Assembly (NCBI GenBank): GCA_015234045.1 | Contig: JADFWU010000001.1 | Location: 1-64,000, forward strand | Direction of reading: 5' to 3' | DNA from: Magnetococcales bacterium | GTDB taxonomy: Bacteria > Pseudomonadota > Magnetococcia > Magnetococcales > JADFWU01 | DNA length: 64,000 nucleotides | Part shown: positions 10,251 through 46,691 of the stretch, piece by piece | How positions within the stretch are numbered: the stretch's first letter is position 1 | Layout of the letters: the number at the start of each line of letters is the position of its first letter | Translations under genes and position numbers: made by a program | The notes under the pieces: generated by a model | Databases searched by the model: none | What the model saw: the letters and a program-made list of their open reading frames with translations, nothing else | Told to the model about the DNA's origin: nothing

Positions 10251-11462
10251 ATGGATCTGCCTATCTATATGGACTATCAATCCACCACGCCGATGGACCC
10301 TCGCGTGTTTGAGGTGATGAAGCCTTGGTTTGTGGAAAAGTATGGTAACCCGGCTTCCAGTTCTCACGCATTTGGTTGGGAGGCGGATGTTGCGGTGGAA
10401 AAAGGCCGCAAGCAGGTGGCAACGTTGATCAATGCCAATCCCAAAGAGATCGTGTTTACATCCGGTGCAACTGAATCAGACAACCTGGCCATTGCCGGTG
10501 CCGCACGGTACTACAAAGAGAAGGGCAACCACATCATCACTGTGGTGACCGAACATAAGGCTGTTTTGGATACTTGCCGCCATTTGGAAGGTGAAGATTT
10601 TTATATTACCTATCTGCCAGTTCAACCTAATGGATTGTTGGATCTGAAGGTGCTTGAAGCGGCGATGACGGATCAGACTATTCTGGTTTCAGTGATGGGC
10701 GGAAACAATGAGATCGGTGTTGTCCAGCCACTGGCAGAAATCGGCAAGCTGTGCCGGGCACGCAAGATTCTATTTCATTGTGATGCAGCGCAGAGTGTTG
10801 GCAAAATTCCCATGGATGTCAACGCGATGAATATTGATCTGCTCTCTATTTCGGGTCATAAACTGTATGGACCAAAAGGGGTAGGCGCTCTCTATGTGCG
10901 TCGTCGTCCACGGGTTCGGTTACGGGCTATCATGCATGGTGGTGGCCATGAGCGTGGTATGCGTTCGGGTACATTGCCGGTACCTTTGATCGTTGGTTTT
11001 GGAGAAGCGTGTGAGATTTGTGCGAATGAGATGGAGGCCGAGTCAGCCCGTTTGCTTTCACTGCGTGAGCGGATGCGTACTCGGATCTTCGACAAATTGG
11101 AACATATTCAGGTAAATGGTGATCTTGAACAGCGCCTGCCGGGTAATTTGAACATCTCCTTTGCCTATGTGGAAGGAGAGTCCATGATGATGGCTATCAA
11201 GGATGTGGCGGTTTCATCAGGTTCTGCATGTACATCGGCTTCTTTGGAACCTTCCTATGTATTGCGTGCTTTGGGCTTGGAAGATGAGTTGGCCCATAGC
11301 TCCATACGCTTTGGTCTTGGTCGTCACACCACTGAAGAAGAGGTGGATTGGGTGGCTGATAAGGTGATCGAAGCGGTTACCAAACTTCGGGATTTGTCGC
11401 CTTTGTGGGAGATGGTCCAGGAAGGTATTGATCTGAGTACGATTAAGTGGGCGGAACATTAA
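10251..11462 (+). CDS. iscS: Cysteine desulfurase IscS
   Basis: [67 protein letters not shown]. Confidence 0.97.
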
Positions 11463-11551
11463 GTTGGGTCTGACACCGCGATACTACTTATTCTGCTGAA
11501 ATAAATGAGCCCAGAGAAATGAACGGGTTGCATCCATAGAGGAGAAATACA

Positions 11552-11944
11552 ATGGCCTATAATGACAAGGTCTTGGACCATTATGAAAATCCACGCAATG
11601 TTGGTGCGATGGAAAAAGGTGATGATGATGTCGGCACCGGCATGGTGGGAGCACCTGCCTGTGGTGACGTGATGAAGTTGCAGATTCGGGTGGATGACGA
11701 AGGCGTGATCAGTGATGCCAAATTCAAAACCTATGGTTGCGGTTCAGCCATTGCGTCCTCATCATTGGTGACTGAGTGGGTCAAAGGTAAGACCATTGAT
11801 GAAGCGTTGGCCATCAAGAACAAAGAGATTGCTGATGAGTTGGCTTTGCCACCGGTGAAGATTCACTGTTCTGTTCTGGCAGAAGATGCCATCAAGGCAG
11901 CGGTCACTGATTACCGTAGCAAACAGGATGCAAAAGGAGAGTGA
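11552..11944 (+). CDS. iscU: Fe-S cluster scaffold IscU
   Basis: MAYNDKVLDHYENPRNVGAM..GAPACGDVMKLQI..LPPVKIHCSVLAEDAIKAA. Confidence 0.97.
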   Translation: MAYNDKVLDHYENPRNVGAMEKGDDDVGTGMVGAPACGDVMKLQIRVDDEGVISDAKFKTYGCGSAIASSSLVTEWVKGKTIDEALAIKNKEIADELALPPVKIHCSVLAEDAIKAAVTDYRSKQDAKGE

Positions 11945-11947
11945 GTC

Positions 11948-12355
11948 ATGTCCGATAAATGCACGGCAACAGACTCCAATACACCCCTTCCAGAGCCACC
12001 GGCACCCAATCCGTCTGTGGATCTGAACGCACCTATTTCTCTAAGCGAAAAAGCAGCTGTTCGGGTTCAGGCCATGTTGGATAATCGCGGAACACCCGAT
12101 GCGATGTTGCGTATTGGCGTGAAAACCAGTGGTTGTTCTGGCATGTCCTATAAGCTTGAGTATGCCGATGCTGTTGAAGAGAGTGACAAGGTGTTCAAGA
12201 GCCATGATGTAAGCGTTGTGGTTGATCCTAAGTCATTGCTCTATCTTGCTGGTTTACAGGTTGATTATATTGATGATCCGTTCAAATCTGGTTTCAAGTT
12301 TACCAATCCCAACGAGAAAGACAGTTGTGGGTGTGGTGAGTCATTCAAGGTTTGA
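11948..12355 (+). CDS. iscA: Fe-S cluster assembly protein IscA (A-type carrier)
   Basis: KTSGCSGMSYKLEYAD...NPNEKDSCGCGESFKV. Confidence 0.93.
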   Translation: MSDKCTATDSNTPLPEPPAPNPSVDLNAPISLSEKAAVRVQAMLDNRGTPDAMLRIGVKTSGCSGMSYKLEYADAVEESDKVFKSHDVSVVVDPKSLLYLAGLQVDYIDDPFKSGFKFTNPNEKDSCGCGESFKV

Positions 12356-12370
12356 TGGAGCACACCATCC

Positions 12371-13024
12371 ATGAGTAATCTCGTTGCCTGTTGGTCATGC
12401 AAAGGACCGATAGCCACGCCGCGTCCGGCTTTTTGTCCTACCTGTAAAGCCATCCAGCCACCGGACCTACAGTTGAGCTATTTTGAACTGTTTGATCAGC
12501 CAAAAGGGTTTTATTTGGATCTTCAATCCGTAGAAGAGCGGTATCGCACTTTACAGCAGGCTTTTCATCCTGATCGTTACGCGACCCGCTCACCCACGGA
12601 AGGGCGTTTTTCCATGGAGCAGGTTACACGGCTGAACGAAGGATTGCAGACACTGCGCGATCCACTCAGTCGAGCGGGTTATCTGTTGCAATTGGAGGGA
12701 CGTTCACCGGGTGATGAATCCAGTGGTGCTGCGCCTTCTGACCCTGCTTTCTTGATGGAAGTGATGGAACTGAGAGAAGAGTTGGAATCGGTTGATCTGG
12801 ATAAAGAGAACGCTTCCGAACAACTTGATCAACTGAGAGAAAATGCCGCATTACGCATTCATGATGAAGTGCAGGGTATCGGTGATGCGTTCGAAGAATG
12901 GTATGAAGAAAATGCGGTAGGCGCACTGGATAGTGTGGCGTTATTTATGGATCGTTTGCGTTACCACAGACGCTATTTGGAAGAGATAGATCAGATGGAA
13001 GAGCGTTTGTTCGACAGGGAATAG
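12371..13024 (+). CDS. hscB: Co-chaperone HscB (with N-terminal zinc-ribbon)
   Basis: CWSCKGPIATPRPAFCPTCKAIQPP, then J-domain LQQAFHPDRYATRSPTE. Confidence 0.93.
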   Translation: MSNLVACWSCKGPIATPRPAFCPTCKAIQPPDLQLSYFELFDQPKGFYLDLQSVEERYRTLQQAFHPDRYATRSPTEGRFSMEQVTRLNEGLQTLRDPLSRAGYLLQLEGRSPGDESSGAAPSDPAFLMEVMELREELESVDLDKENASEQLDQLRENAALRIHDEVQGIGDAFEEWYEENAVGALDSVALFMDRLRYHRRYLEEIDQMEERLFDRE

Positions 13025-29220: not shown

Positions 29221-30480
29221 TCAACCTCCGGCCAATTTGTGTGCCCGTTGTCTTGCTTCATGCAGGATTTCCTCTTCGCCGGGAACATGGCGATTCTGCA
29301 TCACAACCCGACCATCAACGATCATGGTGTCCACTACATGGCCGGTTGCAGCATAGACAAGATTAGAGACCAGATCATGTTCCGGCGTGATTTCCAGAAG
29401 ATCTCGACGCAATAGGAGTAGGTCCGCTACTTCTCCTGCGGCAAGTGTGCTGGTGACACCGAGCAGTGGCGCACGGGCACCTGTTGCGATATCCCAGGCA
29501 TCTTGAGCTGGTAGTGTGGTTGGATCTTGATCAGCATGTTTTTGGATTAACGCGAAGGTTTTGAGATCTTGGAAAAGGTCCAAGGTATTGTTGGAGGCGG
29601 TGCCATCGGTGCCTAAGGCGATTGGAATATTGCGTTTGGCTGCTTCAGAGTAGGGGAAAATGCCACCTACTGCCAGTTTTAGATTGGAGACTGGATTGGT
29701 TACCAGAGTTGCGCCTTTTTCAGCGATAAGGTCCAACTCTTCATCATCAAGATGAACGCCGTGAGCCAGGAATGTACGCGGTGTGAGTAGTCCAACATCA
29801 TTGAGATAATGAGCAGGGCGGACGCTATATTTCTTCAAACAATCCGATACCTCTTGAAAGGTTTCGGAGAGATGAATATGGACGGGAACATCGTTTTTTT
29901 CAGAAAAATCCGCCAGCCAGCGCAGGCTGTCCGTACTGACGGTATAGATGGCATGTGGGCTGAGTTCATAGCGAATACGACTGGAATATTGGCTGGTCTC
30001 TTCCCACAATTGTTGGGTCAGTTTTTTGAACGTATTTGCCTGATCAGGGCCAGCGACATCAATCATGATGGCACCAACACCGGCACGAATGCCCATTTCC
30101 TCAACTGCTCGGGCGATACCGTGGTAGTTCCAGTACATATCATGAAACATCACCGTACCAGAGCGCATCATCTCCAGGCAGGCCAGTTTTGTGCCCCAGT
30201 AGACATCCTCTTCAGAAAGACGCGCCTCAGCAGGCCAGATTCGGGTTTCAAGCCACTCCATCAACGGCATATCATCGCCATAACCACGTAGCAGCGTCAT
30301 TGCGGCATGGGTGTGTCCATTGATCAGACCGGGAACCGCAACCATATGTTCCGCATCCAGGCGATGGGAGTCTGGCAGTGGTGCCAAGTCAGGGCCAATG
30401 GCCTTGATAATATTCTCTTCAATGATGATGTTGACCTGTCCCTGATTTGGAATCCAGGCGTTGTGGATCCAGAGCGACAT
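29221..30480 (-). CDS. mtaD: TRZ/ATZ-family amidohydrolase, likely 5'-methylthioadenosine / S-adenosylhomocysteine deaminase
   Basis: VPGLINGHTHAAMTLLRGYGDDMPLMEWLETRIWPAE; VPVHIHLSET; LAHGVHLDDEEL; LGTDGTASNN. Confidence 0.9.
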   Translation of the reverse strand: MSLWIHNAWIPNQGQVNIIIEENIIKAIGPDLAPLPDSHRLDAEHMVAVPGLINGHTHAAMTLLRGYGDDMPLMEWLETRIWPAEARLSEEDVYWGTKLACLEMMRSGTVMFHDMYWNYHGIARAVEEMGIRAGVGAIMIDVAGPDQANTFKKLTQQLWEETSQYSSRIRYELSPHAIYTVSTDSLRWLADFSEKNDVPVHIHLSETFQEVSDCLKKYSVRPAHYLNDVGLLTPRTFLAHGVHLDDEELDLIAEKGATLVTNPVSNLKLAVGGIFPYSEAAKRNIPIALGTDGTASNNTLDLFQDLKTFALIQKHADQDPTTLPAQDAWDIATGARAPLLGVTSTLAAGEVADLLLLRRDLLEITPEHDLVSNLVYAATGHVVDTMIVDGRVVMQNRHVPGEEEILHEARQRAHKLAGG

Positions 30481-30484
30481 ACGG

Positions 30485-31195
30485 TTATTCCCTGTCCAGT
30501 TGGGTCAAAAGGGTTTCAACTACATTGAGCACCATGGCTTCATTGGCGCGCACTTGTTGTTTAAATGCGTCAAAGGAGAGCGGTGTGTCCACAAGACCAT
30601 TGGCAAAGTTGTCCACCACACAGAGAGCCGCATAGGGCAGCTTCAATTCCGCAGCAAGAATGCATTCAGAGGCTACAGTCATGCCGACCAGATCCACACG
30701 ACCTTGATGAAAGCGGATCTCTGCCGGTGTCTCAAAGCGCGGTCCAGTGGTTTGCCAGTAGATTCCGCCGTTGACAGGTTCTTTCAAAGGTGTGGTTTTC
30801 CAGAGCCCTAAAATTTTTTGACGCCATGACGCATCGAAACACGGTGCAATATGGCCACGTTGGTCGGTGAAAAAAGAAAGATTGACCTGTGGTGCATAGA
30901 AATCATCCGGCAATACCAGCGTACCAGGTGGTAGATCGTCACGCAGACTGCCTACAGAGCCAATGGCAAGGATGCGGTCAACACCAATCTCTTTTAATGC
31001 CGCCATATGGGCAAAATGATTGATACGGTGAGGCGGTGTGTAGTTTTCCAGACCGTGACGTTGTAGAAAAAAAATCTCATCCTGCTCGAGAAGTGTTACA
31101 ACGCCGTGCGGTGTGGAGATCTGATGCTGTTTGGCCGTTTGAAAATGTTTCGCCTCAAGCAGGCTGGTTCCGCCGATCAGCGCCAGCCGACTCAT
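30485..31195 (-). CDS. S-methyl-5'-thioinosine / thioadenosine phosphorylase (PNP/MTAP family 2)
   Basis: MSRLALIGGTSLLEAK; FLQRHGLENYTPPHRINHFAHMAALKEIGVDRILAIGSVGSL; TTGPRFETPAEIR..VDLVGMTVASECILAAELKLPYAAL. Confidence 0.87.
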   Translation of the reverse strand: MSRLALIGGTSLLEAKHFQTAKQHQISTPHGVVTLLEQDEIFFLQRHGLENYTPPHRINHFAHMAALKEIGVDRILAIGSVGSLRDDLPPGTLVLPDDFYAPQVNLSFFTDQRGHIAPCFDASWRQKILGLWKTTPLKEPVNGGIYWQTTGPRFETPAEIRFHQGRVDLVGMTVASECILAAELKLPYAALCVVDNFANGLVDTPLSFDAFKQQVRANEAMVLNVVETLLTQLDRE

Positions 31196-31881
31196 TGATT
31201 CTTCCACCATAGACCGGCATCACTATTGGAACTGTCTTTTGAAACCGGTTGAGTGCTGGCATCAGTACGGTTATCAGGGTTCTGATGCCACAGACTGTGC
31301 CACCAACCTTCTTCTTCTACGGCGACTTCGGTATCTGGCTTGTCAGAATGGAGAAAATCCAGACTGGTCAGCCGATCCCAAAGAGAGGGTTCCTGTTCAC
31401 TGCGGCGGGCTTGAAGCAGGGCATGCTGTCTGAGTATGGGATCATTATTACTGATGGTTGCTGGAAAAGGGCGGGGATTGCCTACCAGCCAGTTCCACCA
31501 GCCACTCACTTTACTCTCATCCTGAATCAGTGCGACATCTTCTGGATCTCCAAGAGCATCACCAAAGTTGCGGTTGATTTCAGCAACGCGACCAGAGGCA
31601 TCAAACACCAGTTCAACCCGATTATAAACGCGCGTAAATGTGCGCTGATAATTACGGTATTGCCGATCCTGGATATAGATCCAGCGCTCGTTTCTAAATG
31701 AATTGACCAAAGTGGGCGAGCCGAGCAACTGGCGCACTTGCCGGTGTGTGGTTTGACCAATCTTGATCTGCTGGACAGCATCAAGGGAAAGTATGTTACC
31801 CTTTTCGTGCGTCATGGCCTGACAGGCCGTTAAGCTCAGGGTTAGAATAAGAAGCCAGATAGAGGCGAAAGGACGCAACAT
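31192..31881 (-). CDS. bamE: BamE/SmpA-like outer membrane lipoprotein with extended C-terminus
   Basis: Lipobox LTACQ; SLDAVQQIKIGQTTHRQVRQLLGSPTLVNSFRNERWIYIQDRQ; start at internal MLRPFAS. Confidence 0.85.
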   Translation of the reverse strand: MLRPFASIWLLILTLSLTACQAMTHEKGNILSLDAVQQIKIGQTTHRQVRQLLGSPTLVNSFRNERWIYIQDRQYRNYQRTFTRVYNRVELVFDASGRVAEINRNFGDALGDPEDVALIQDESKVSGWWNWLVGNPRPFPATISNNDPILRQHALLQARRSEQEPSLWDRLTSLDFLHSDKPDTEVAVEEEGWWHSLWHQNPDNRTDASTQPVSKDSSNSDAGLWWKNQ

Positions 31882-32612: not shown

Positions 32613-33800
32613 ATGAATAAGAAGACCATTGACCAAGTTGAACTTCAAGGCAAACGGGTTTTTATTCGGGTTGATTTCAATGTGCCACTGACGCCAGAGG
32701 GCACAGTGCGTGAAGATACCCGTATCCGCCGTGCATTGCCCACGATTCAAAAGGCCATTGAAAAGGGTGGTCGCGTGGTGCTCGCATCCCATTTAGGCCG
32801 CCCAAAAGGTCAGCGGGTGCCTGAGATGTCATTGAAACCAGCGGCTGAGCGACTTTCTGAGTTGTTGGGGCAGCCGGTTGGATTGGCTCCGGATTGTATC
32901 GGTGATGATGTCGCTGCTTTGGCGGATGCGCTGAAACCGGGTGAGGTGCTCTTGCTGGAAAATGTACGCTATCACGCAGGCGAGACCACCAACGATCCTG
33001 AATTTGCCAAAGCATTGGCCATGTTGGCGGATATTCATGTCAACGACGCTTTTGGAACAGCCCATCGGGCACATGCTTCCAATGTTGGTGTGTCTGAGCT
33101 GGTGAAGCCTTCTGTTGCTGGCTTGTTGATGGCTAATGAAATTGAGTACTTCAATCGGGCAATGGCCCAGCCTGAACGGCCTGTTGCGGCGATTCTTGGT
33201 GGTTCCAAGGTGTCTGGCAAGATCAACGTGATTGACGCACTGTTGGATCGTGTGGATAAGGTGCTGATCGGTGGCGGTATGGCGTTTACCTTCTTCAAAG
33301 CGCTGGGCTACGATGTGGGCAACTCCTTGGTCGAAGCCGAGATGACCGATGTGGCGCAGAAAGCCATGGATAAGGCAAAACAGCGTGGTGTTGAATTAAT
33401 CCTGCCTGTGGATGCTATTGCGGCTCAGGCCATTGAAGAGGGTGCCGAAACACAGGTGGTATCGGTTAAATCAGTACCAGAAGGTTGGATGGGGTTGGAC
33501 ATCGGTCCTGATTCGGTAAAACTGTTTCAAGACGCTTTGGCGGATGTTAAAACCGTTGTTTGGAACGGGCCAATGGGTGTGTTTGAGAAGCCAGATTTTG
33601 CTACAGGTACAGTTGAATTGGCAAAATATATTGGTGCCAGTTCTGCGCTGTCGGTAATCGGCGGCGGTGATACCGATGCCGCAGTGAAACAAGCTGGTGT
33701 TGCGGATCAGGTTTCCTATATTTCAACAGGTGGTGGTGCATTCCTGGAGCTTTTGGAAGGCAAAACACTACCGGGTATAGCGGCGCTGGATGATGCCTGA
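32613..33800 (+). CDS. pgk: Phosphoglycerate kinase
   Basis: KRVFIRVDFNVPLTPEGTVREDTRIRRALPTI; VVLASHLGRPKG; AILGGSKVSGKI; IGGGDTDAAV. Confidence 0.98.
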   Translation: MNKKTIDQVELQGKRVFIRVDFNVPLTPEGTVREDTRIRRALPTIQKAIEKGGRVVLASHLGRPKGQRVPEMSLKPAAERLSELLGQPVGLAPDCIGDDVAALADALKPGEVLLLENVRYHAGETTNDPEFAKALAMLADIHVNDAFGTAHRAHASNVGVSELVKPSVAGLLMANEIEYFNRAMAQPERPVAAILGGSKVSGKINVIDALLDRVDKVLIGGGMAFTFFKALGYDVGNSLVEAEMTDVAQKAMDKAKQRGVELILPVDAIAAQAIEEGAETQVVSVKSVPEGWMGLDIGPDSVKLFQDALADVKTVVWNGPMGVFEKPDFATGTVELAKYIGASSALSVIGGGDTDAAVKQAGVADQVSYISTGGGAFLELLEGKTLPGIAALDDA

Positions 33801-34638
33801 TTCTAAACAAAAAAACCTTCCCGGTCTGTCCGCTGTATTGATAGGCCGGGATGAGGCTCACCATTTGAATAAGACCATTCCGCCTCTGATTGAGATTGCG
33901 GATGAAGTGGTCTTTGTGGACACTGGCTCGCAAGATAGTACCGTTGATTTGGCTACTCAGCTGGGTTGCTGGGTAGCGCAAGTTCCTTGGCAGGATGATT
34001 TTTCATTGGCCAAAAACCACGCTGTTGACTTGGCAAAACATGCTTGGATTCTCAATGTGGATTGTGATGAAGAATTGACTATTGATCAAGCGGCTCGGGA
34101 TTTTCGGGCTGTGTTGGATAGCATTGACGCGGTTCCAGCCTATCGGGTTCGGATTGAAAATCTGAATGCCAATGGTGAGATTCAGCCCTCTGAAGCGATT
34201 CGATTGTTTCGGAATGATCCAGTGATTCGGTTTCGTAATCCGGTTCATGAGAGCGTTGCAGATAGTGTTTATGAGCAGTGGCGCGGCTTTCGTCCAATGC
34301 TGGCTGGTTTTGTGCTGCGCCATTACGGTTATCTTGGTAATCTTAATCAGGATAAAATCAAACGCAATGTGATGATTCTGCGCCGCTGGATTGAGCAGGA
34401 ACCCGACAGCGTATATGGTAACTATAAGCTGGGTATGAACCTGTTGTTTTTGGGTAGTGAGAGTGAGGCTGTTTTTTTTCTCAAACAGTCCTTTGAGGCA
34501 CTGAACGCGGCAGCGGATCGCATGAGCTATCCATTTGCCGAGAAATTGATCACTACTTTGGCGACTGCCTTGATGCGGCAAGGGCGGGCACAAGAAGTGG
34601 AAGATATTAAACTCAAGGTTGCACGTTGGACATCTTGA
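33790..34638 (+). CDS. Glycosyltransferase family 2
   Basis: LSAVLIGRDEAHHLNKTIPPLIEIADEVVFVDTGSQDSTVDLA; WILNVDCDEEL. Confidence 0.9.
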   Translation: MMPDSKQKNLPGLSAVLIGRDEAHHLNKTIPPLIEIADEVVFVDTGSQDSTVDLATQLGCWVAQVPWQDDFSLAKNHAVDLAKHAWILNVDCDEELTIDQAARDFRAVLDSIDAVPAYRVRIENLNANGEIQPSEAIRLFRNDPVIRFRNPVHESVADSVYEQWRGFRPMLAGFVLRHYGYLGNLNQDKIKRNVMILRRWIEQEPDSVYGNYKLGMNLLFLGSESEAVFFLKQSFEALNAAADRMSYPFAEKLITTLATALMRQGRAQEVEDIKLKVARWTS

Positions 34639-34720: not shown

Positions 34721-37700
34721 ATGATTCACCAGGAAACGCTGATTACTCTCTCCATCCGGGCTGCTAAAGACCCGGTCAATGCCTTTATGGCCAATTTGGT
34801 TATCGATGGCGTAACCATTCGCGAAGATATGGCGATTTCTGCCAGTCGCTATCAGTTGCTGCGTCCGTTAGTGGATAGTCTGAGGCAGCTGCTTAAAGAG
34901 CCTGGCAATGCTGAGATGGTCCAGGATGCAGTGACCAGTGTTGGTATTGAGATGTTTGATCTTTGGCTGGGTGAACTGTGGAGCGAAGTTGAATCACGTA
35001 TTCAACCCAATCGACCGCGTTTACTTTCGTTCGCCTCAGAGATTGCTGAAGTACTCAATCTGCCTTGGGAATTGATTCGACCGCCATCCTCCTCATCGTT
35101 GGGTTTTAATCCCAGTTATGGCATACGACGTATGCCAAATGTTGGCCAGGAGCCGGCACGATGCTGTGTCATTCCGCCACCGCGTCCATTGCGTGTGCTG
35201 GCTTTGGCCGCTGCGCCGTTGGATCAGCTGGGTATCGATTTTGATGCTGAGTTGTTGGGATTGCGCCGGGCCGTTGGTCGGGCTGGTCGGGATGCGGTGT
35301 TCTATGCCTGTGAGACTGGCTCAATTGAAACGCTGAAACAGGATATCCATCGTTTCCAGCCCCATATTGTTCAGCTTATCGGCCACAGTATGGTCCGTGG
35401 TGGCCAGGGTCACTTCTGCTTCGAGGATGAGAGTGGGCAGAGTGATGTGTACACCGGTCAGTCACTGGCAAAGGATCTGTTTGCTGGTAGCGGTGTTCAG
35501 ATGGTGTGCGTGTCTGGTCGGGTTGCTGGAAAACCAGCCACTATTGCAGCTTCAGGAGCCATGTGTCAGGACTTGGTCAAGCATGGTTTGCCGTTGGCAT
35601 TGGCATGGGGCGATACCCTGATTGCACCGGCTGGTGCTCGGTTTGCTGAGGCAATGTATTCGGCGATTGCTTCTGATCATGTGGTGGATCGTGCGCTGAC
35701 TCAGGCGCGTCAGACCGTACAAGATATCTGCAATGCACAGGGTTATCCCGGTTGGATTCTTCCGGCGCTTTACTCTGTGACCAATCAACGTTTGGTGTTC
35801 AATGTCAGTCCAGCTGCGCCACCCGTAACACCGCCTGAAATCTCTGATCCTGTTGTGCCTTTGCCGGGTTTGATTGCGGGTTCTACACGTCGATTGATGG
35901 GCCGTCGGGCGGAGATGCGTAGCCTGTTGCCGGACTTGATCGAAGGTAAAACCATCTCCTTGTTGATCACCGGCGCACAAGGTAATGGTAAAACCACGTT
36001 GGCAACAGCACTGGCCAGAGGGCTACAAGAAAAGGGATTTCAACCGGTTGCACTCAATTCTACACCAACGAATCCGCTGACTGTTGGGCGCATTATAGAC
36101 GCTTTTGGCAGCGCCTTTTTGGCGCTGGAGTTTCAGGAAGAATATCAACTGCTTCTGGATTCCAATATTCGTGTTGAAGACCGTTTGGTATTCCTCGCTG
36201 AAGCGATGAATCGGCGCACGCCCTTTGTATTGGTCCTGGATGGTCTGGCCCGCGAGTTGGACCCGGAAAACGGAACATTTGTTGATACGGCACTGGCTGC
36301 GTTTGTTGCCCATTTAATCACGCGACTCTCGGGTGATTCGCGTTTGATCATGACCAGTCGGCGCGTGCCTCAACTGCCGGGCGTTACGTTGCCGGATCAT
36401 TTCAAGGTTTCTGAAGTGGTTGGGCTTTCGGAATATGCATTCAGCAGTCTGGTGCTGGATGATGCCTCGGTTGAGGCGCGTCAGATGTTCGGTGATATCA
36501 ACAAGGGCATGTTGCGCAATCTGCATCAATGGTTTGGTGATTGTCCGGCCCTGATTCCGACTCTTCGGGCTTTCCTGCGGGATGCGGATCTGTCGTTGTT
36601 GCAGGAGCGTTTGAATACAACGCCTGCTGAGAGCCTTTCCAGAGATGAGCGGCTGGAGGTGATCAAAACATTGGTGATGAAACCGCTGTTTGATCGTCTT
36701 GATCCATTGGCACGCAAGGCGCTTTCCAAGATTGCCGTGTTTGATATTCCGGTCTGTGCCGAGGCAATGGGACAGGTGTCTGACATGGATCGGGATACGA
36801 TCCTTGGTTGGATTCCTAAATGGCAGGGTGGTGGGTGGATTCATCCTAAAAAACCCAGTGACAATGCCAGACATTGGACGGTACGACCCTTTGTTAAACA
36901 TTTTTTGACAGATGCAGATAATCTTACCGAAGATGAGAATGTCGCCGCGCACAAAGCGGCGGGTGATTTCCTGATTACCACGATTGAGGAAGAGCGGGAC
37001 ATCCAAAGAGGGCATTACTGGGGGGATCTGATGATCTCGGCCAGAAATCACTATTTGACTGGTAAAGCATTTGCGTCGGCGTTGGATATCTCGAAAAAAG
37101 TCAGTGAATTTCTGTATGCCCACGGTTTTTACCATGTGTTGATCAACTTCAACCTTAAAATGTTGGAGGGTGCTGAAAAAGCGTCTCCAGTGAACTGGAT
37201 TGGTTTAGCACTGCTCTATCAAAATCAGATAGATATGGCGCAAACATGGTTGGAGAGAGGGTTGTCGCTGGCATTGACTGAAGGAAGTGATCAAGAAGAA
37301 GGGGTCGCGCGCCGGAATCTTGCGTTGATCATGCGGGAAAAGAATGATCCTGATAGCGCATTGGCGCATCTCAATCTTGTCCTTAAAGGGCTGTCAGATG
37401 ATGTGAAGAACCGTGATGCACAGGGTGCGATCCTATTGCAGATGGCGGAGATTCAAGAAGAGAAGGGCAAAGTTCGTTCTGCAAAAAAATCTTTGGAAGC
37501 CGCGATTGCAGCGACTCAACAGAGTGGTAATAAGGCCGGCGAGTCTGCGGCATGGTTTCAGCTGGGTAATCTCGTGCTGAAACAGGGCGATAGTGAAACA
37601 GCGTTGGAGCATTTCCAAAACGCGTTGGCTATTGATCTGGCGACTGGCAATCGGAGTGGTCAGGCAACGATTCTACCTTGTCTTGGCAATATCCATTTCA

Positions 37701-38194
37701 ATATGGGATTGTTGGACAAAGCACGCGAAAATTTTGAGGCGAGTTTGCATTTGCTACGCGCTTTGGATAATCGGCCTTCTGAAGCGGTGATTTTGCATCA
37801 ACTGGCCACAGTGGATATGCACGCACAGCACTATGATGATGCGTTGAAAAAGTTTCGTCAGTCGTTGGAAATCAAGCGGAGTATGCGTGATTTTCGTGGC
37901 GAATCAGCGACTTTTTTCCAGCTGTCCTTGTTGGCTCAAGAGATGGGCAAGAGTGATGAAGCGTTTAAGCTGATGGCATTGTGTCAGCGCTTGGATGAGC
38001 AAATCGGCCATCCGGATGCCGAACAGGAACGCCATTTGTTCCAGGAAATGGCCGAGTCACTCTCCTATGAGGTGAGTGAGGCGTTGGCTATTCAAGATGA
38101 GGTTTGGGAATCATATCGAAATGATCGCGGTGATACGCTGATTGATGAGATTTTCAAAAAACAGACCGTTATTCCCATTGCACCAATGAACTGA
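34721..38194 (+). CDS. CHAT-like domain / STAND-type P-loop NTPase / TPR-repeat protein
   Basis: N-terminal CHAT-like fold (LNLPWELIRPP; HIVQLIGHSMVRGGQGHFCFED; VQMVCVSGR); Walker A ITGAQGNGKTTLA, Walker B FVLVLDG; C-terminal TPRs (ETALEHFQNALAIDLATGNRSGQATILPCLGNIHFNMGLLDKARENFEASL). Confidence 0.82.
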   Translation: MIHQETLITLSIRAAKDPVNAFMANLVIDGVTIREDMAISASRYQLLRPLVDSLRQLLKEPGNAEMVQDAVTSVGIEMFDLWLGELWSEVESRIQPNRPRLLSFASEIAEVLNLPWELIRPPSSSSLGFNPSYGIRRMPNVGQEPARCCVIPPPRPLRVLALAAAPLDQLGIDFDAELLGLRRAVGRAGRDAVFYACETGSIETLKQDIHRFQPHIVQLIGHSMVRGGQGHFCFEDESGQSDVYTGQSLAKDLFAGSGVQMVCVSGRVAGKPATIAASGAMCQDLVKHGLPLALAWGDTLIAPAGARFAEAMYSAIASDHVVDRALTQARQTVQDICNAQGYPGWILPALYSVTNQRLVFNVSPAAPPVTPPEISDPVVPLPGLIAGSTRRLMGRRAEMRSLLPDLIEGKTISLLITGAQGNGKTTLATALARGLQEKGFQPVALNSTPTNPLTVGRIIDAFGSAFLALEFQEEYQLLLDSNIRVEDRLVFLAEAMNRRTPFVLVLDGLARELDPENGTFVDTALAAFVAHLITRLSGDSRLIMTSRRVPQLPGVTLPDHFKVSEVVGLSEYAFSSLVLDDASVEARQMFGDINKGMLRNLHQWFGDCPALIPTLRAFLRDADLSLLQERLNTTPAESLSRDERLEVIKTLVMKPLFDRLDPLARKALSKIAVFDIPVCAEAMGQVSDMDRDTILGWIPKWQGGGWIHPKKPSDNARHWTVRPFVKHFLTDADNLTEDENVAAHKAAGDFLITTIEEERDIQRGHYWGDLMISARNHYLTGKAFASALDISKKVSEFLYAHGFYHVLINFNLKMLEGAEKASPVNWIGLALLYQNQIDMAQTWLERGLSLALTEGSDQEEGVARRNLALIMREKNDPDSALAHLNLVLKGLSDDVKNRDAQGAILLQMAEIQEEKGKVRSAKKSLEAAIAATQQSGNKAGESAAWFQLGNLVLKQGDSETALEHFQNALAIDLATGNRSGQATILPCLGNIHFNMGLLDKARENFEASLHLLRALDNRPSEAVILHQLATVDMHAQHYDDALKKFRQSLEIKRSMRDFRGESATFFQLSLLAQEMGKSDEAFKLMALCQRLDEQIGHPDAEQERHLFQEMAESLSYEVSEALAIQDEVWESYRNDRGDTLIDEIFKKQTVIPIAPMN

Positions 38195-38208: not shown

Positions 38209-39432
38209 ATGAAGATGAAACAGGGAAATCTTCTAGTAGCACAGGGTGGTGGTCCGACAGCTGTAATCAATCAGTCATTGGTGGGTGCCGTGCTTGAGGC
38301 GCGTAAATTTCCGCAGGTGAAGCGGGTTTACGGAGCGGTTCATGGTGTTCAAGGGATTGTGGATGAGAACTTTATAGACCTCAGCCAAGAGACAACACAT
38401 AACCTGGAACTGGTGGCCGCTACACCAGGTTCAGCATTGGGTTCAACCCGCGATAAACCGGATGCCAAGTATTGTCAGGAGATTTTTAAATCTCTCAAAG
38501 CTCATGATATCCGTAGCTTTTTCTATATGGGCGGCAATGACTCTTCCGATGCGCTACGCATCATCAAAGAGTTTGCCAATGCCGAGCAGTATGCTCTGAA
38601 CACAATCCACATTCCCAAAACCATAGACAACGATTTGATGGTCAACGACCACACACCGGGCTATCCCTCTGCGGCACGCTTTGTGGTCAATGCGTTTGCT
38701 GGTGTCAACTTGGATAACCGTGCGATTCCCGGTGTTTATATCGGTGTAGTCATGGGACGGCATGCCGGTTTTCTCACTGCTGCCGCTGGCTTGGCACGTA
38801 AGAGTCGGGATGATGGTCCACACTTGATCTATGTGCCTGAACGTGTGTTTGACATGGAGAAATTTCTTCAGGATGTGACACGGGTTTATAATAAACATGG
38901 TCGTTGTGTAATCGCTGTTTCTGAAGGTATCCATGATGCTGCGGGCACACCTATTGTGACCAAGATGCTGTCAAACGTTGAAAAAGACGCGCATGGCAAT
39001 GTTCAGCTTTCCGGTACTGGTGCGTTGGCGGATCTGTTGACCAATGAAATCAGAACCAAGTTGGGTATTGGTCGGGTTCGCGGTGATACGTTCGGCTATT
39101 TACAGCGTTCTTTTTTGGGTGTGGTGTCCGATGTCGATCAACGTGAAGCGCGTGAAGTTGGTGAAAAGGCCGCTCAATTTGCCTATTGGCATCAAGCGGA
39201 TGGCACGATCACCATTCATCGTACTGGACAGTATTCTGTAAACTATCGTCTCGATCCTTTGGAGGCAGTGGCTGCTAAGACCAAGGTGATGGATGATTCA
39301 TTCATCTCTGAGTGTGGTACGGATATTACGGATGCGTTCCGGCTCTATTTAAGTCCGTTATTGGGTTCTGGAATGGCGGAATATTATACGTTGAGAGCAC
39401 CGAGAGTGCCGCAGATTCTGACTGGGAAGTAG
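38209..39432 (+). CDS. 6-phosphofructokinase, likely pyrophosphate-dependent type
   Basis: GNLLVAQGGGPTAVINQSLVG; FYMGGNDSSDALRI; HIPKTIDNDL. Confidence 0.92.
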   Translation: MKMKQGNLLVAQGGGPTAVINQSLVGAVLEARKFPQVKRVYGAVHGVQGIVDENFIDLSQETTHNLELVAATPGSALGSTRDKPDAKYCQEIFKSLKAHDIRSFFYMGGNDSSDALRIIKEFANAEQYALNTIHIPKTIDNDLMVNDHTPGYPSAARFVVNAFAGVNLDNRAIPGVYIGVVMGRHAGFLTAAAGLARKSRDDGPHLIYVPERVFDMEKFLQDVTRVYNKHGRCVIAVSEGIHDAAGTPIVTKMLSNVEKDAHGNVQLSGTGALADLLTNEIRTKLGIGRVRGDTFGYLQRSFLGVVSDVDQREAREVGEKAAQFAYWHQADGTITIHRTGQYSVNYRLDPLEAVAAKTKVMDDSFISECGTDITDAFRLYLSPLLGSGMAEYYTLRAPRVPQILTGK

Positions 39433-41374: not shown

Positions 41375-41920
41375 GTGATAGAGATGTTAAATTTCAAATA
41401 TAGAGTGACTAAATTTGTCGCACTCATGATGGCGGGATTTTGCCTGTTCCTTTCTGTACCTTCAGAAGCGGATGCTATTGAGGTAGCACCGAGGATTAGT
41501 GATCGGGAGATTGTTGAATCATTGACAGAAATAAAAACAGAAATGAAGGCGATGCAGAAAATTACAGATCAACGCTTTGATCATTCAGATAAACGCTTTG
41601 ATCATTCAGATAAACGTATGGATGATCTGCGTATGGATATGAACACTAAGTTCACAGATTTACGTGAAACGATGTTGGTTATGTTTGGTGCGCTTGTTTC
41701 GTTGATTATCGCGCTGTTTGGCTATATTGCATGGGATCGGCGCAGTATGGTGAAACCGCTTGGTAAGCGGCTGGATATTATGGAGCAGAATCTGGAGCGG
41801 GATTTTGAGGTCAGTAATGCCGAAGGCTCAATGCCGCGCCGGTTATTAAAAGCTTTACGTGAGTTGGCCAACTCTGATGAAAAATTGGCCAATGTTTTGA
41901 GAAGTTTTTCACTGCTCTAA
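41375..41920 (+). CDS. Secreted/membrane coiled-coil protein, paralogue 1
   Basis: Signal peptide, short QRFDHSDK repeats, TM segment LVMFGALVSLIIALFGYIAWDRR; C-terminus nearly identical to the next gene. Confidence 0.75.
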   Translation: MIEMLNFKYRVTKFVALMMAGFCLFLSVPSEADAIEVAPRISDREIVESLTEIKTEMKAMQKITDQRFDHSDKRFDHSDKRMDDLRMDMNTKFTDLRETMLVMFGALVSLIIALFGYIAWDRRSMVKPLGKRLDIMEQNLERDFEVSNAEGSMPRRLLKALRELANSDEKLANVLRSFSLL

Positions 41921-41955
41921 TTATGCGGTATGTTTGTGTGATAGGGGGCGAATAA

Positions 41956-42573
41956 GTGTTTCACTATATGGATAGAATTTTTAAATTTATCTCGATAGTA
42001 TTGACAGGATTCTGCCTGTTTATTTCTGCGCCTTCAGCAGTGGATGCCATTGAAATAGCACCGAGGATCAGTGATCGGGAGATCATCGAATCATTGGCGG
42101 AACTCAAAGCGGAACACAAAAATATAGATCAACGTTTTGATGGTGTTGATCAGCGTTTTGATGGTGTTAATCAGCGTTTTGATGGTGTTGATCAGCGTTT
42201 TGAAGGTGTTAATCAGCGTTTTGATGGTGTTAATGAGCGTTTTGATGGTATTAATGAGCGCTTTAAGAATGTTGATCAACGCTTTGATAATATGGAAAAA
42301 CGCATAGATGATCTACGTGAAACAATGTTGGTCATGTTTGGAGCGCTTGTTTCGTTGTTTATCGCTTTGTTTGGCTACATTGCATGGGACCGGCGTAATA
42401 TGGCGCAACCATTGCGGAAGCGGCTGGATATTATGGAACAGAAGTTTGATCGGGAATTAGAAATCAATAATACTGAGGGCTCAATGCCGCGCAGATTATT
42501 AGAGGCCTTACGTGAGCTGGCCAGCTCCGATAAAAAATTGGCTAACGTGTTGAGAAGTTTTTCGCTGCTTTGA
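41956..42573 (+). CDS. Secreted/membrane coiled-coil protein, paralogue 2 (expanded heptad repeat)
   Basis: Same architecture as 41375-41920 with eight 7-aa units (D/N)QRFDGV. Confidence 0.75.
   Translation: MFHYMDRIFKFISIVLTGFCLFISAPSAVDAIEIAPRISDREIIESLAELKAEHKNIDQRFDGVDQRFDGVNQRFDGVDQRFEGVNQRFDGVNERFDGINERFKNVDQRFDNMEKRIDDLRETMLVMFGALVSLFIALFGYIAWDRRNMAQPLRKRLDIMEQKFDRELEINNTEGSMPRRLLEALRELASSDKKLANVLRSFSLL
42127..42294 (+). repeat. 21-bp in-frame tandem repeat, about 8 units
   Basis: (GAT/AAT)CAGCGTTTTGATGGTGTT units encoding (D/N)QRFDGV. Confidence 0.92.
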
Positions 42574-44357: not shown

Positions 44358-46691
44358 CTAGAATTCTTTGAAGGGGTTGGGGCCGAACGCTTCAAGATCG
44401 TCAACAAATGCGTTGATCTTATCGGGTAGGATATCCGAATCCATGATATTGACCTCAATCATCTTCACGCGCTCAGATTCCAGTTGCAGGCGATCCAGTG
44501 TTTCAGCCACCTTGTTCAAGCGCGTTTCAGCCAGAGCAGAACCACGCACAAAGTGACATTGATAGTCATCCCCATGGCGACACCCCATCAGCAGTACACC
44601 GTCGTATCCAGCGGACATCGCATCAGCTACCCACACCAAATTCATCGAGCCCATGCAGCGCAAAGGAACCACACGAATATAGGGGGTCAGTATGCCACGA
44701 TTGTGACCGATCATATCCAAAGCGGGATATGCATCGTTCTCACAGGCAAAGATCAGAATACGGGGTTTCTCTTCGTCTTCCTCGGGAATCTCGCACTCCT
44801 TAAACATGGTGCTGATCATATCCACCGAGTAATTGGAGAAAGAGATAATCTTCTGAGGGCAAGCACCCATACAGGTTCCGCAACGGCGGCAACGTGTTGG
44901 ATTGAATAGCGGATTGCTCTTATCGTCCTCATTGATGGCACCAAAGGGACACTCTTCGGTACAGCGCTTACACTGAGTACATCCGTCAACACGGAACGAA
45001 GGATAGGAGAGATCACCCACGCGTGGATGCACAGCCGCACCACGACCGATGGACTCAACTGTTTGAATGGCTTTCAATGCAGCGCCTGTGGCATCAGTCA
45101 TTGAAGAGGAGATACCCATGGGACGACGCACAGGACCAGCGGCATGGATGCCGGTACGGCGGGTTTCATAAGGGAAGCAAATGTAATGAGAATCCGGGAA
45201 GCCCCACTTCAACAAAGGCAGGCTCGGACCTTGACGATATTGAAGATTCAATACCGAGTTTGCATCCGATGCAGAAAGATCAGTTTCCTGGTTGGGATCA
45301 GTGGTATCAATGTTCGGCATCATGCCGGTGGCAAGTACCAACAGATCAACGTCAAGACTCTCTGGAGTCCGCAGAAGTTTATCATTGATATCAACAGTCA
45401 ATCCGCCATTGGAACCGGAAGCTACTTTGTTAATATCGCCTTTGATAAACACGCCGCCTTCATTCTGAACCTTCCGATAGAAATCTTCCATTTGACCAGG
45501 GGTACGAATCTCCTGATAGATGAGGAAGGTGGAAGCGTCTTCATACTGCTCTGTGACATAAAGGGCCTGCTTCATGGAGTAGGTGCAGCAGGCACCGGAA
45601 CAGTACTCCAAATGCTGAACATCCCGGCTACCGGCGCAGAGAGAGAAGGCAACCCGCTTGGCTGGTTGGCCATCGGATTTACGGACGATATTGCCCGCTT
45701 TGGCCATTTGTTCAAATTCCCAGGCGGTGATGACATCAGGGGATGTACCATGGCCCAAGTGTGTCAGTTTGGTTTCATCATAGAGCGTGTAGCCGGTGGC
45801 AACCACGATTGCGCCGATGCGCTCACTGTTTTCGCCAGTGCTATCTTCGCCAGTGCTATCTTCGCCAGTGCTATCTTCGCCAGTGCTATCTTCGCCAGTG
45901 CTATAATCTTCGCCAGTGCTATCTTCGCCAGTGCTATCTTCGCCAGTGCTATATTCGCCAGCGCCATATTCAATTTTGACATCGAACAGACCGGGTGCTC
46001 CGGTGGTTTCCTTGATGGTGGCCTTTTTGTAGATTTTAATTTTATCATGACCTTCAACCGCTGCAATTAAAGCAGCAGTAGGCGGCTGTTCCAATTGGTC
46101 GTAAGGCGGTTTAACAGGAGAAACTTTCAACATCTGGGCGACACGGCCACCCAGTTCTGCGTCTTTTTCAACCAGAACCACGTCATAACCGGTATCAGCG
46201 GCTTCTTTGGCTGCGGTCAGACCGGAGACACCGCCACCCACCACCATGATGGTTTTGGATAGGCCAGGATCATCAAACGGTTCAGGCGGGTCCATTTTCT
46301 TGACTTTGGCGCAACCCATACGCAAATAGTCTTCCGCCGCCATTTGACGGTCTTCTTCAAACACGTCCTTGTCGTCTTCTTCTTTGAGGTGCTGTACCCA
46401 GATTACCTGCTCACGCAGATTGACCCGATCCAGCAAAGGGGCTTCTAATTGACGAAAGGTCTCAACATGGACACGTGGTGAACAGGCCGCGATAACAACC
46501 GTATTGACAGCTTCGTTCTGCATATCGTGACGGATTGTTGTCAATCCCTCTTCACCGCAGAGAAACGCATGAGTGCGTACAACTGGTATTCGGGACTCCT
46601 TGGTTGCCATATCCTCAAGGAGTTTGATATCCAGTAGATCGCCGATGCCACAGCCCGTGCAGATATAGCAGCCGATTTTTTGATTTTCCAT
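44358..46691 (-). CDS. qmoB: QmoB-type HdrA/MvhD fusion flavoprotein
   Basis: GCYICTGCGIGDLLD; FAD motif VVGGGVSGLTAAKEA; 2x[4Fe-4S] CTQCKRCTEECPFGA/CRRCGTCMGACPQKI; MvhD-like C-terminus (PLRCMGSMNLVWVADAMSAGYDGVLLMGCRHGDDYQCHF). Confidence 0.92.
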   Translation of the reverse strand: MENQKIGCYICTGCGIGDLLDIKLLEDMATKESRIPVVRTHAFLCGEEGLTTIRHDMQNEAVNTVVIAACSPRVHVETFRQLEAPLLDRVNLREQVIWVQHLKEEDDKDVFEEDRQMAAEDYLRMGCAKVKKMDPPEPFDDPGLSKTIMVVGGGVSGLTAAKEAADTGYDVVLVEKDAELGGRVAQMLKVSPVKPPYDQLEQPPTAALIAAVEGHDKIKIYKKATIKETTGAPGLFDVKIEYGAGEYSTGEDSTGEDSTGEDYSTGEDSTGEDSTGEDSTGEDSTGENSERIGAIVVATGYTLYDETKLTHLGHGTSPDVITAWEFEQMAKAGNIVRKSDGQPAKRVAFSLCAGSRDVQHLEYCSGACCTYSMKQALYVTEQYEDASTFLIYQEIRTPGQMEDFYRKVQNEGGVFIKGDINKVASGSNGGLTVDINDKLLRTPESLDVDLLVLATGMMPNIDTTDPNQETDLSASDANSVLNLQYRQGPSLPLLKWGFPDSHYICFPYETRRTGIHAAGPVRRPMGISSSMTDATGAALKAIQTVESIGRGAAVHPRVGDLSYPSFRVDGCTQCKRCTEECPFGAINEDDKSNPLFNPTRCRRCGTCMGACPQKIISFSNYSVDMISTMFKECEIPEEDEEKPRILIFACENDAYPALDMIGHNRGILTPYIRVVPLRCMGSMNLVWVADAMSAGYDGVLLMGCRHGDDYQCHFVRGSALAETRLNKVAETLDRLQLESERVKMIEVNIMDSDILPDKINAFVDDLEAFGPNPFKEF
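45831..45968 (-). repeat. 15-bp in-frame tandem repeat inside qmoB, about 9 units
   Basis: TTCGCCAGTGCTATC units (one of 18 bp) encoding STGED on the minus strand. Confidence 0.95.

Follow-up and report, generated by a model that had tools for sequence, protein, structure and literature searches.

Proteins that join a caspase-like head to a STAND nucleotide switch and a tail of repeats are commonly interpreted as machinery of immunity or cell death. One gene of this layout lies in the stretch of DNA analysed here (the window, 64,000 nucleotides from a Magnetococcales bacterium), and an earlier note, made from the sequence alone, had proposed that it encodes a signal-activated protease or scaffold, possibly defence-related, with a housekeeping or signalling role as an alternative. 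The question raised by this locus is which of these readings is favoured by the protein itself, by its relatives and by its genomic setting. We consider that it is probably a catalytically dead CHAT-STAND-TPR protein, a nucleotide-gated scaffold of a metabolic operon that has, as far as sampled, been vertically inherited in the Magnetococcales.

Domain layout and predicted structure

The open reading frame is intact over 1157 codons, and the claim of a single reading frame with a CHAT-like head, a STAND NTPase and a TPR tail was upheld by profile searches, two AlphaFold models and Foldseek (Table 1), with the motifs LNLPWELIRPP, GAQGNGKTTLA and FVLVLDG found where they had been reported. Pfam profiles place TPRs at residues 900-1100 (TPR_12, E=1.4e-27) and AAA_16 at residues 391-514 (E=3.1e-6, below the curated cut-off). 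The CHAT profile PF12770 matches residues 185-337 at 22 bits, where the cut-off is 24, and gave 24.5 bits for the window protein when the model was run against the genome; orthologues from other genomes reach as much as 57 bits, making an assignment that is borderline in the window protein firm, by profile comparison, at the family level. The NACHT profile did not match the window protein (16.6 bits against a cut-off of 26.7), PADLOC models retrieved only generic TPR matches and weak P-loop or repeat matches for it, and a search of solved structures by sequence returned mainly TPR matches and a few P-loop ones. The protein thus shares the tripartite effector-NTPase-repeat layout of bacterial NLR-like anti-phage proteins (bNACHT, Avs) but lacks their NACHT or known defence-model match.

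For residues 1-375, an AlphaFold model built with 32 natural family sequences as input reached a mean pLDDT of 91.8, and Foldseek searches of the PDB with this model retrieved Csx29/TPR-CHAT, separase and SAVED-CHAT followed by caspases, with E-values from 9e-11 (best match 8eey_B, E=9e-11). A CHAT/separase/caspase-like fold, on which the earlier reading of the N-terminus had depended, is therefore predicted. The TM-scores are moderate (0.4-0.6 on the query), which argues for a common fold and not for close kinship to Csx29, separase or caspases. What the window protein has in common with the CHAT peptidases (PF12770; Csx29/TPR-CHAT, separase and the SAVED-CHAT protease) is the fold over the whole N-terminal 375 residues, the LPWE motif and the order of strands and helices.

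The full-length model (pLDDT 86.5) best matched the STAND-TPR protein PH0952 (6mfv, E=3.7e-19, TM 0.72 on the target), and APAF1 was also among the structural matches. The domain map of PH0952 (PMC6468293) was the basis for assigning boundaries, and by this analogy the protein would run from the CHAT domain through nucleotide-binding, helical, winged-helix and arm domains to the TPRs, the non-CHAT part following the order of STAND ATPases with a TPR sensor (MalT, PH0952; APAF1 clade). The TPR helices in the model are spaced by 40 residues (918, 958, 998, 1038, 1078, 1118), in agreement with the periodicity of about 40 residues noted earlier.

Table 1. Features of the locus, with positions in the window.
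Feature	Position	Strand	Basis or remark
Pseudo-CHAT - STAND NTPase - TPR protein, 1157 aa	34721..38194	+	ORF calling, Pfam, AlphaFold model
CHAT-like (caspase/separase fold) domain, residues 1-360, predicted catalytically dead	34721..35800	+	AlphaFold pLDDT 91.8, Foldseek, residue columns
His222 codon, catalytic-His column	35384..35386	+	His in only 2/32 orthologues (alignment)
Cys263 codon, candidate of the earlier note	35507..35509	+	Inside a beta strand, off the catalytic column; Cys in the window protein only
Arg267 codon, catalytic-Cys column	35519..35521	+	Arg in 22/32 orthologues
STAND nucleotide-binding domain, residues 390-555	35888..36385	+	AAA_16 match, model, Foldseek 6mfv and APAF1
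Walker A GAQGNGKTT, Lys424	35972..35998	+	Kept in 23/24 orthologues
Walker B FVLVLDG, Asp507	36224..36244	+	Kept in 24/24 orthologues
Helical domain, residues 570-635	36428..36625	+	Model; missing in family f8 and genus g17 relatives
Winged-helix domain, residues 641-730	36641..36910	+	Model; Arg in place of the canonical His (VRPFVKHF)
Arm-like helical region, residues 737-873	36929..37339	+	Model; analogy with PH0952
TPR array, 40-residue period, residues 877-1147	37349..38161	+	Pfam, model
PPi-dependent phosphofructokinase gene, 14 bp 3' of the CHAT gene	38209..39432	+	Locus comparison
MTA/SAH-type deaminase (amidohydrolase) gene, in most relatives directly 5' of the CHAT gene, in the window moved away by inversion	29221..30480	-	Locus comparison
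MTA phosphorylase-like gene of the conserved block	30485..31210	-	Locus comparison
PGK and GT2 genes of the block, in the window directly 5' of the CHAT gene	32613..34638	+	Pfam, locus comparison

The ATP-binding motifs are kept, with at most one exception per motif, in the orthologues whose NTPase region was compared. The window model contains both a helical and a winged-helix domain; compared with other STAND ATPases, 11 of 24 relatives have lost the former, and the His of the winged helix is not conserved. In the fused relatives from family f8 and genus g17 (L038, L040, L041, L043, L050, L051), the helical domain is gone while the P-loop and winged helix are retained, which renders a classical ADP-locked state questionable. 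On these sequence features the NTPase may not switch classically.

The catalytic site and active paralogues

Residue columns were read from an alignment of 32 family members and 13 CHAT-STAND paralogues of the same order. The catalytic-His column holds Pro in 17 members, Thr in seven, Ala in four, His in two, and Leu and Glu in one each, and the catalytic-Cys column holds Arg in 22, Cys in two and other residues in eight. Both His and Cys occur together in 0/32 orthologues as against 13/13 paralogues. Judged by these columns, the N-terminal domain is a pseudo-peptidase throughout the family, usually with Arg in place of the Cys of CHAT peptidases; an active protease is rejected, contradicting the signal-activated protease of the earlier note and bearing out its caution that the domain may be inactive. 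Its proposed catalytic pair survives in one half only: the His of QLIGHSMVRGG does fall in the catalytic-His column, although it is seldom conserved, but the Cys of VQMVCVSGR lies four residues upstream of the catalytic-Cys column, within strand 261-265, where all other members have I, V, L or M, and Cys263 is thereby ruled out as the nucleophile. The position of the Cys column at Arg267 agrees with an independent profile comparison to canonical CHATs.

Bacteria are already known to have inactive caspase-type domains (PMC7159879; PMC6426788), and the window family is thus a variation on them. Similar to the family described here, the bacterial pseudo-orthocaspases (PMC6426788) have a caspase fold, have lost the His/Cys pair, are conserved by lineage and are presumed to be non-proteolytic; they are of p20 type with Tyr/Ser replacements, whereas the window family is of CHAT type, with Pro/Arg as the usual replacements and a STAND module attached. 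In some conflict systems the effector is an inactive domain of the caspase superfamily, likewise joined to NTPase modules (PMC7159879), but at the window locus no conflict-system genes were found alongside, and a conserved metabolic operon takes their place.

A dead site could have been put to new use, with the old active-site pocket binding a ligand or catalysing another reaction by means of the conserved Arg in the Cys column and the proline-rich motif after it. A Pro stretch after the Arg is conserved (PPP in many members), and Arg137, Pro115 and Glu117 are invariant in all 32 family members. Nevertheless, ten of the 32 lack the Arg (members of f5 have Cys or Phe), and Pro115 and Glu117 are conserved in the active paralogues as well and are therefore fold residues, and we regard this reuse of the pocket as unlikely.

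CHAT domains were found in all 48 Magnetococcales genomes searched (up to 12 matches) as against one of 14 control genomes. The window's own genome encodes a CHAT-STAND-TPR paralogue with an intact site, LSCHG ... LSACH (L106; G000 contig 75, about 11142-12497, minus strand), which from its sequence would suit the role of a true NLR-like protease better than the window protein does. Such active paralogues share CHAT, AAA_16 and TPR regions with the window protein (about 27% identity over residues 153-559) but retain the HG...AC site in 13/13, form a separate clade and lie outside the metabolic operon. About 15 of the 38 genomes with the family also have a second, paralogue match at 1e-12, so that cross-talk with active CHATs is possible. 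In a decoy or dominant-negative role, the window protein would assemble together with active CHAT-STAND-TPR paralogues, by way of NTPase or CHAT contacts, and hold them off, as cFLIP does with caspase-8. Active-type CHAT proteins are available in every one of the 48 genomes, and for bacterial conflict systems it has been suggested that inactive caspase domains act as dominant-negative modules or bind peptides (PMC7159879). However, more than 20 genomes carry the family without a close STAND-type active paralogue at 1e-12, some versions consist of CHAT alone and have no NTPase, and the locus is metabolic, which together leave the decoy role rather improbable.

Inheritance and gene neighbourhood

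The family, delimited at over 120 bits (the next-best matches are paralogues at <=102 bits), is single-copy in 38 of the 48 Magnetococcales genomes and in 26 of the 27 good ones (>=90% complete and <=5% contaminated); the genomes compared are mostly metagenome-assembled, with crude gene calls. All family matches in the 399 genomes sampled from the phylum lay within the Magnetococcales, and no orthologue was found elsewhere among them. Searches of phages, plasmids and viral contigs also yielded no orthologue, with weak partial similarity on three plasmids, and a mobile origin was set aside. In the CHAT tree the family forms a single clade (support 100/99) apart from the active CHAT-STAND paralogues. 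Confinement to the Magnetococcales, as far as sampled, and vertical inheritance belong to the reading that we hold to be probable. Among the literature searched, no paper joined Magnetococcales with CHAT domains and none described the window family. Loci of family f8 matched MAGs recorded as Magnetococcales, and the window's genome encodes MamA, with a score above the cut-off; its host is thus probably a magnetotactic member of the order.

Across 37 loci compared, as the earlier note had suggested doing, the gene sits in a conserved block of MTA phosphorylase, MTA/SAH-type deaminase, CHAT protein and PPi-dependent phosphofructokinase (PPi-PFK), with gaps that are often below 60 bp and often only a few bases, and with a 4-bp overlap of the deaminase and CHAT genes in several f13 loci. 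PPi-PFK follows the CHAT gene on its strand in 27 loci; in 29 the deaminase precedes the CHAT gene on its strand, in 22 of these within 600 bp. Beyond the deaminase come MTA phosphorylase, a BamE-domain lipoprotein and a ubiquinol-cytochrome c chaperone gene, and PGK and GT2 are present in many loci. In the window an inversion of the deaminase side has left the CHAT gene next after PGK-GT2, with PFK still immediately downstream; the glycosyltransferase and PFK genes reported as its flanks were confirmed, the latter as the PPi-dependent type. By locus comparison, the setting is operon-like and vertically inherited. Such a neighbourhood is no proof of a functional link, PFK being about 75% identical across loci and the CHAT region about 32%, and in f13, f10 and f14 PFK has moved off while the CHAT part stays. 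An apparent CHAT/PFK fusion in locus L053 was dismissed as a frame overlap of a crude gene call.

In genus g17 (L064, L065, L066, L059, L050), a class III nucleotide cyclase with a PilZ domain is often encoded directly 5' of the CHAT gene, a neighbour that hints at signalling, and some g17 loci have an extra HD-domain protein or WD40-nSTAND protein near PFK.

The earlier note had seen no adjoining defence gene, and a PADLOC scan of ten neighbour genes found none either; its two weak matches were both to one small coiled-coil-like protein, and a defence island was rejected. These results bear on a bacterial NLR-like defence protease, in which the TPRs would sense phage, the STAND module would oligomerise and the CHAT domain would cleave a host protein, leading to cell death. 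The layout is that of predicted conflict proteins, and L106 combines it with an intact active site in the same genome. However, no family member has the His/Cys pair, and in place of the patchy, mobile or defence-island distribution of bNACHT/Avs-type proteins the family is an order-wide, core-like, single-copy syntenic gene in an operon with non-defence neighbours, with nothing on phages or viral contigs and only the weak similarity on three plasmids. Moreover, the C-terminal TPRs (from residue 901) are the most conserved segment, with a mean identity of 0.358 as against 0.206 for the helical and winged-helix part, the least conserved, whereas the tail of an immune sensor would be expected to be variable. 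Defence by proteolysis is unlikely, this particular chain of events is very improbable, and the earlier suggestion of a link to defence found no positive support.

Domain loss, selection and proposed role

CHAT-only genes of about 330-400 aa occur in f13, f10, f14 and genus g7 of f7, and in g17 CHAT and STAND-TPR are often two separate ORFs. Some of the splits could be assembly frameshifts in metagenome-assembled genomes, but the CHAT-only state is too widespread for this. The fused form is probably ancestral on the CHAT tree, in which deep branches are weakly resolved, and because several lineages keep CHAT alone, the dead CHAT domain would be the core output.

By the Nei-Gojobori method, dN/dS over the CHAT region was 0.07-0.15 in three fused-protein pairs, where values are rough as the pairs are near synonymous saturation, and 0.16 and 0.39 in two CHAT-only pairs, the latter at low dS; PFK gave 0.005 and 0.04 in two of the same pairs. 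All values are below 1 and point to purifying selection on the family. That the gene is a functionless, decaying remnant of a CHAT-STAND protein, as the low CHAT-region identity among members (24-38%), the lost catalytic residues and the domains lost in several lineages might suggest, is hardly credible given that long ORFs remain intact across many family-level groups, that dN/dS is well below 1 even over the CHAT region, and that the Walker motifs and the genomic position are retained.

The scaffold and the housekeeping or signalling role offered as alternatives in the earlier note best fit the dead site and the metabolic operon. In the nucleotide-gated scaffold that we favour, the TPR tail would sense a ligand or protein, the NTPase would, like those of MalT and PH0952, be closed in its ADP state and open in its ATP state, and the CHAT domain would serve as a non-proteolytic binding module that scaffolds or regulates a partner, plausibly an enzyme encoded next to the CHAT gene. 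MalT is itself a metabolic and not an immune switch, as we read the window protein to be, although a dead CHAT domain would here be the output instead of the DNA-binding domain of such STANDs. Direct control of PPi-PFK or the deaminase is speculative. We put forward only tentatively, and with some doubt, the bolder version in which a protein of NLR architecture has been recruited to central metabolism as its dedicated regulator, with a TPR-sensing STAND switch and a dead caspase-like domain that binds and controls PPi-PFK or the MTA/SAH-type deaminase. The layout has long been kept in this family with a dead protease, housed in an operon of glycolysis and nucleoside salvage, so that defence function is poorly predicted from architecture alone. 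The natural CHAT-only, split and fused versions within one bacterial order provide a clean test of non-proteolytic CHAT function.

Repeats were also observed elsewhere in the window. Positions 41375-42573 encode two neighbouring paralogous small membrane-type proteins, the second of which has a 21-bp repeat array (42128-42288) that gives a coiled-coil-like QRFDGVN repeat and differs in length from that of its neighbour. An HdrA-like gene (44358-46691, minus strand) contains a 15-bp tandem repeat of about 8.5 copies (45831-45961), which encodes (STGED)n in the middle of the protein.
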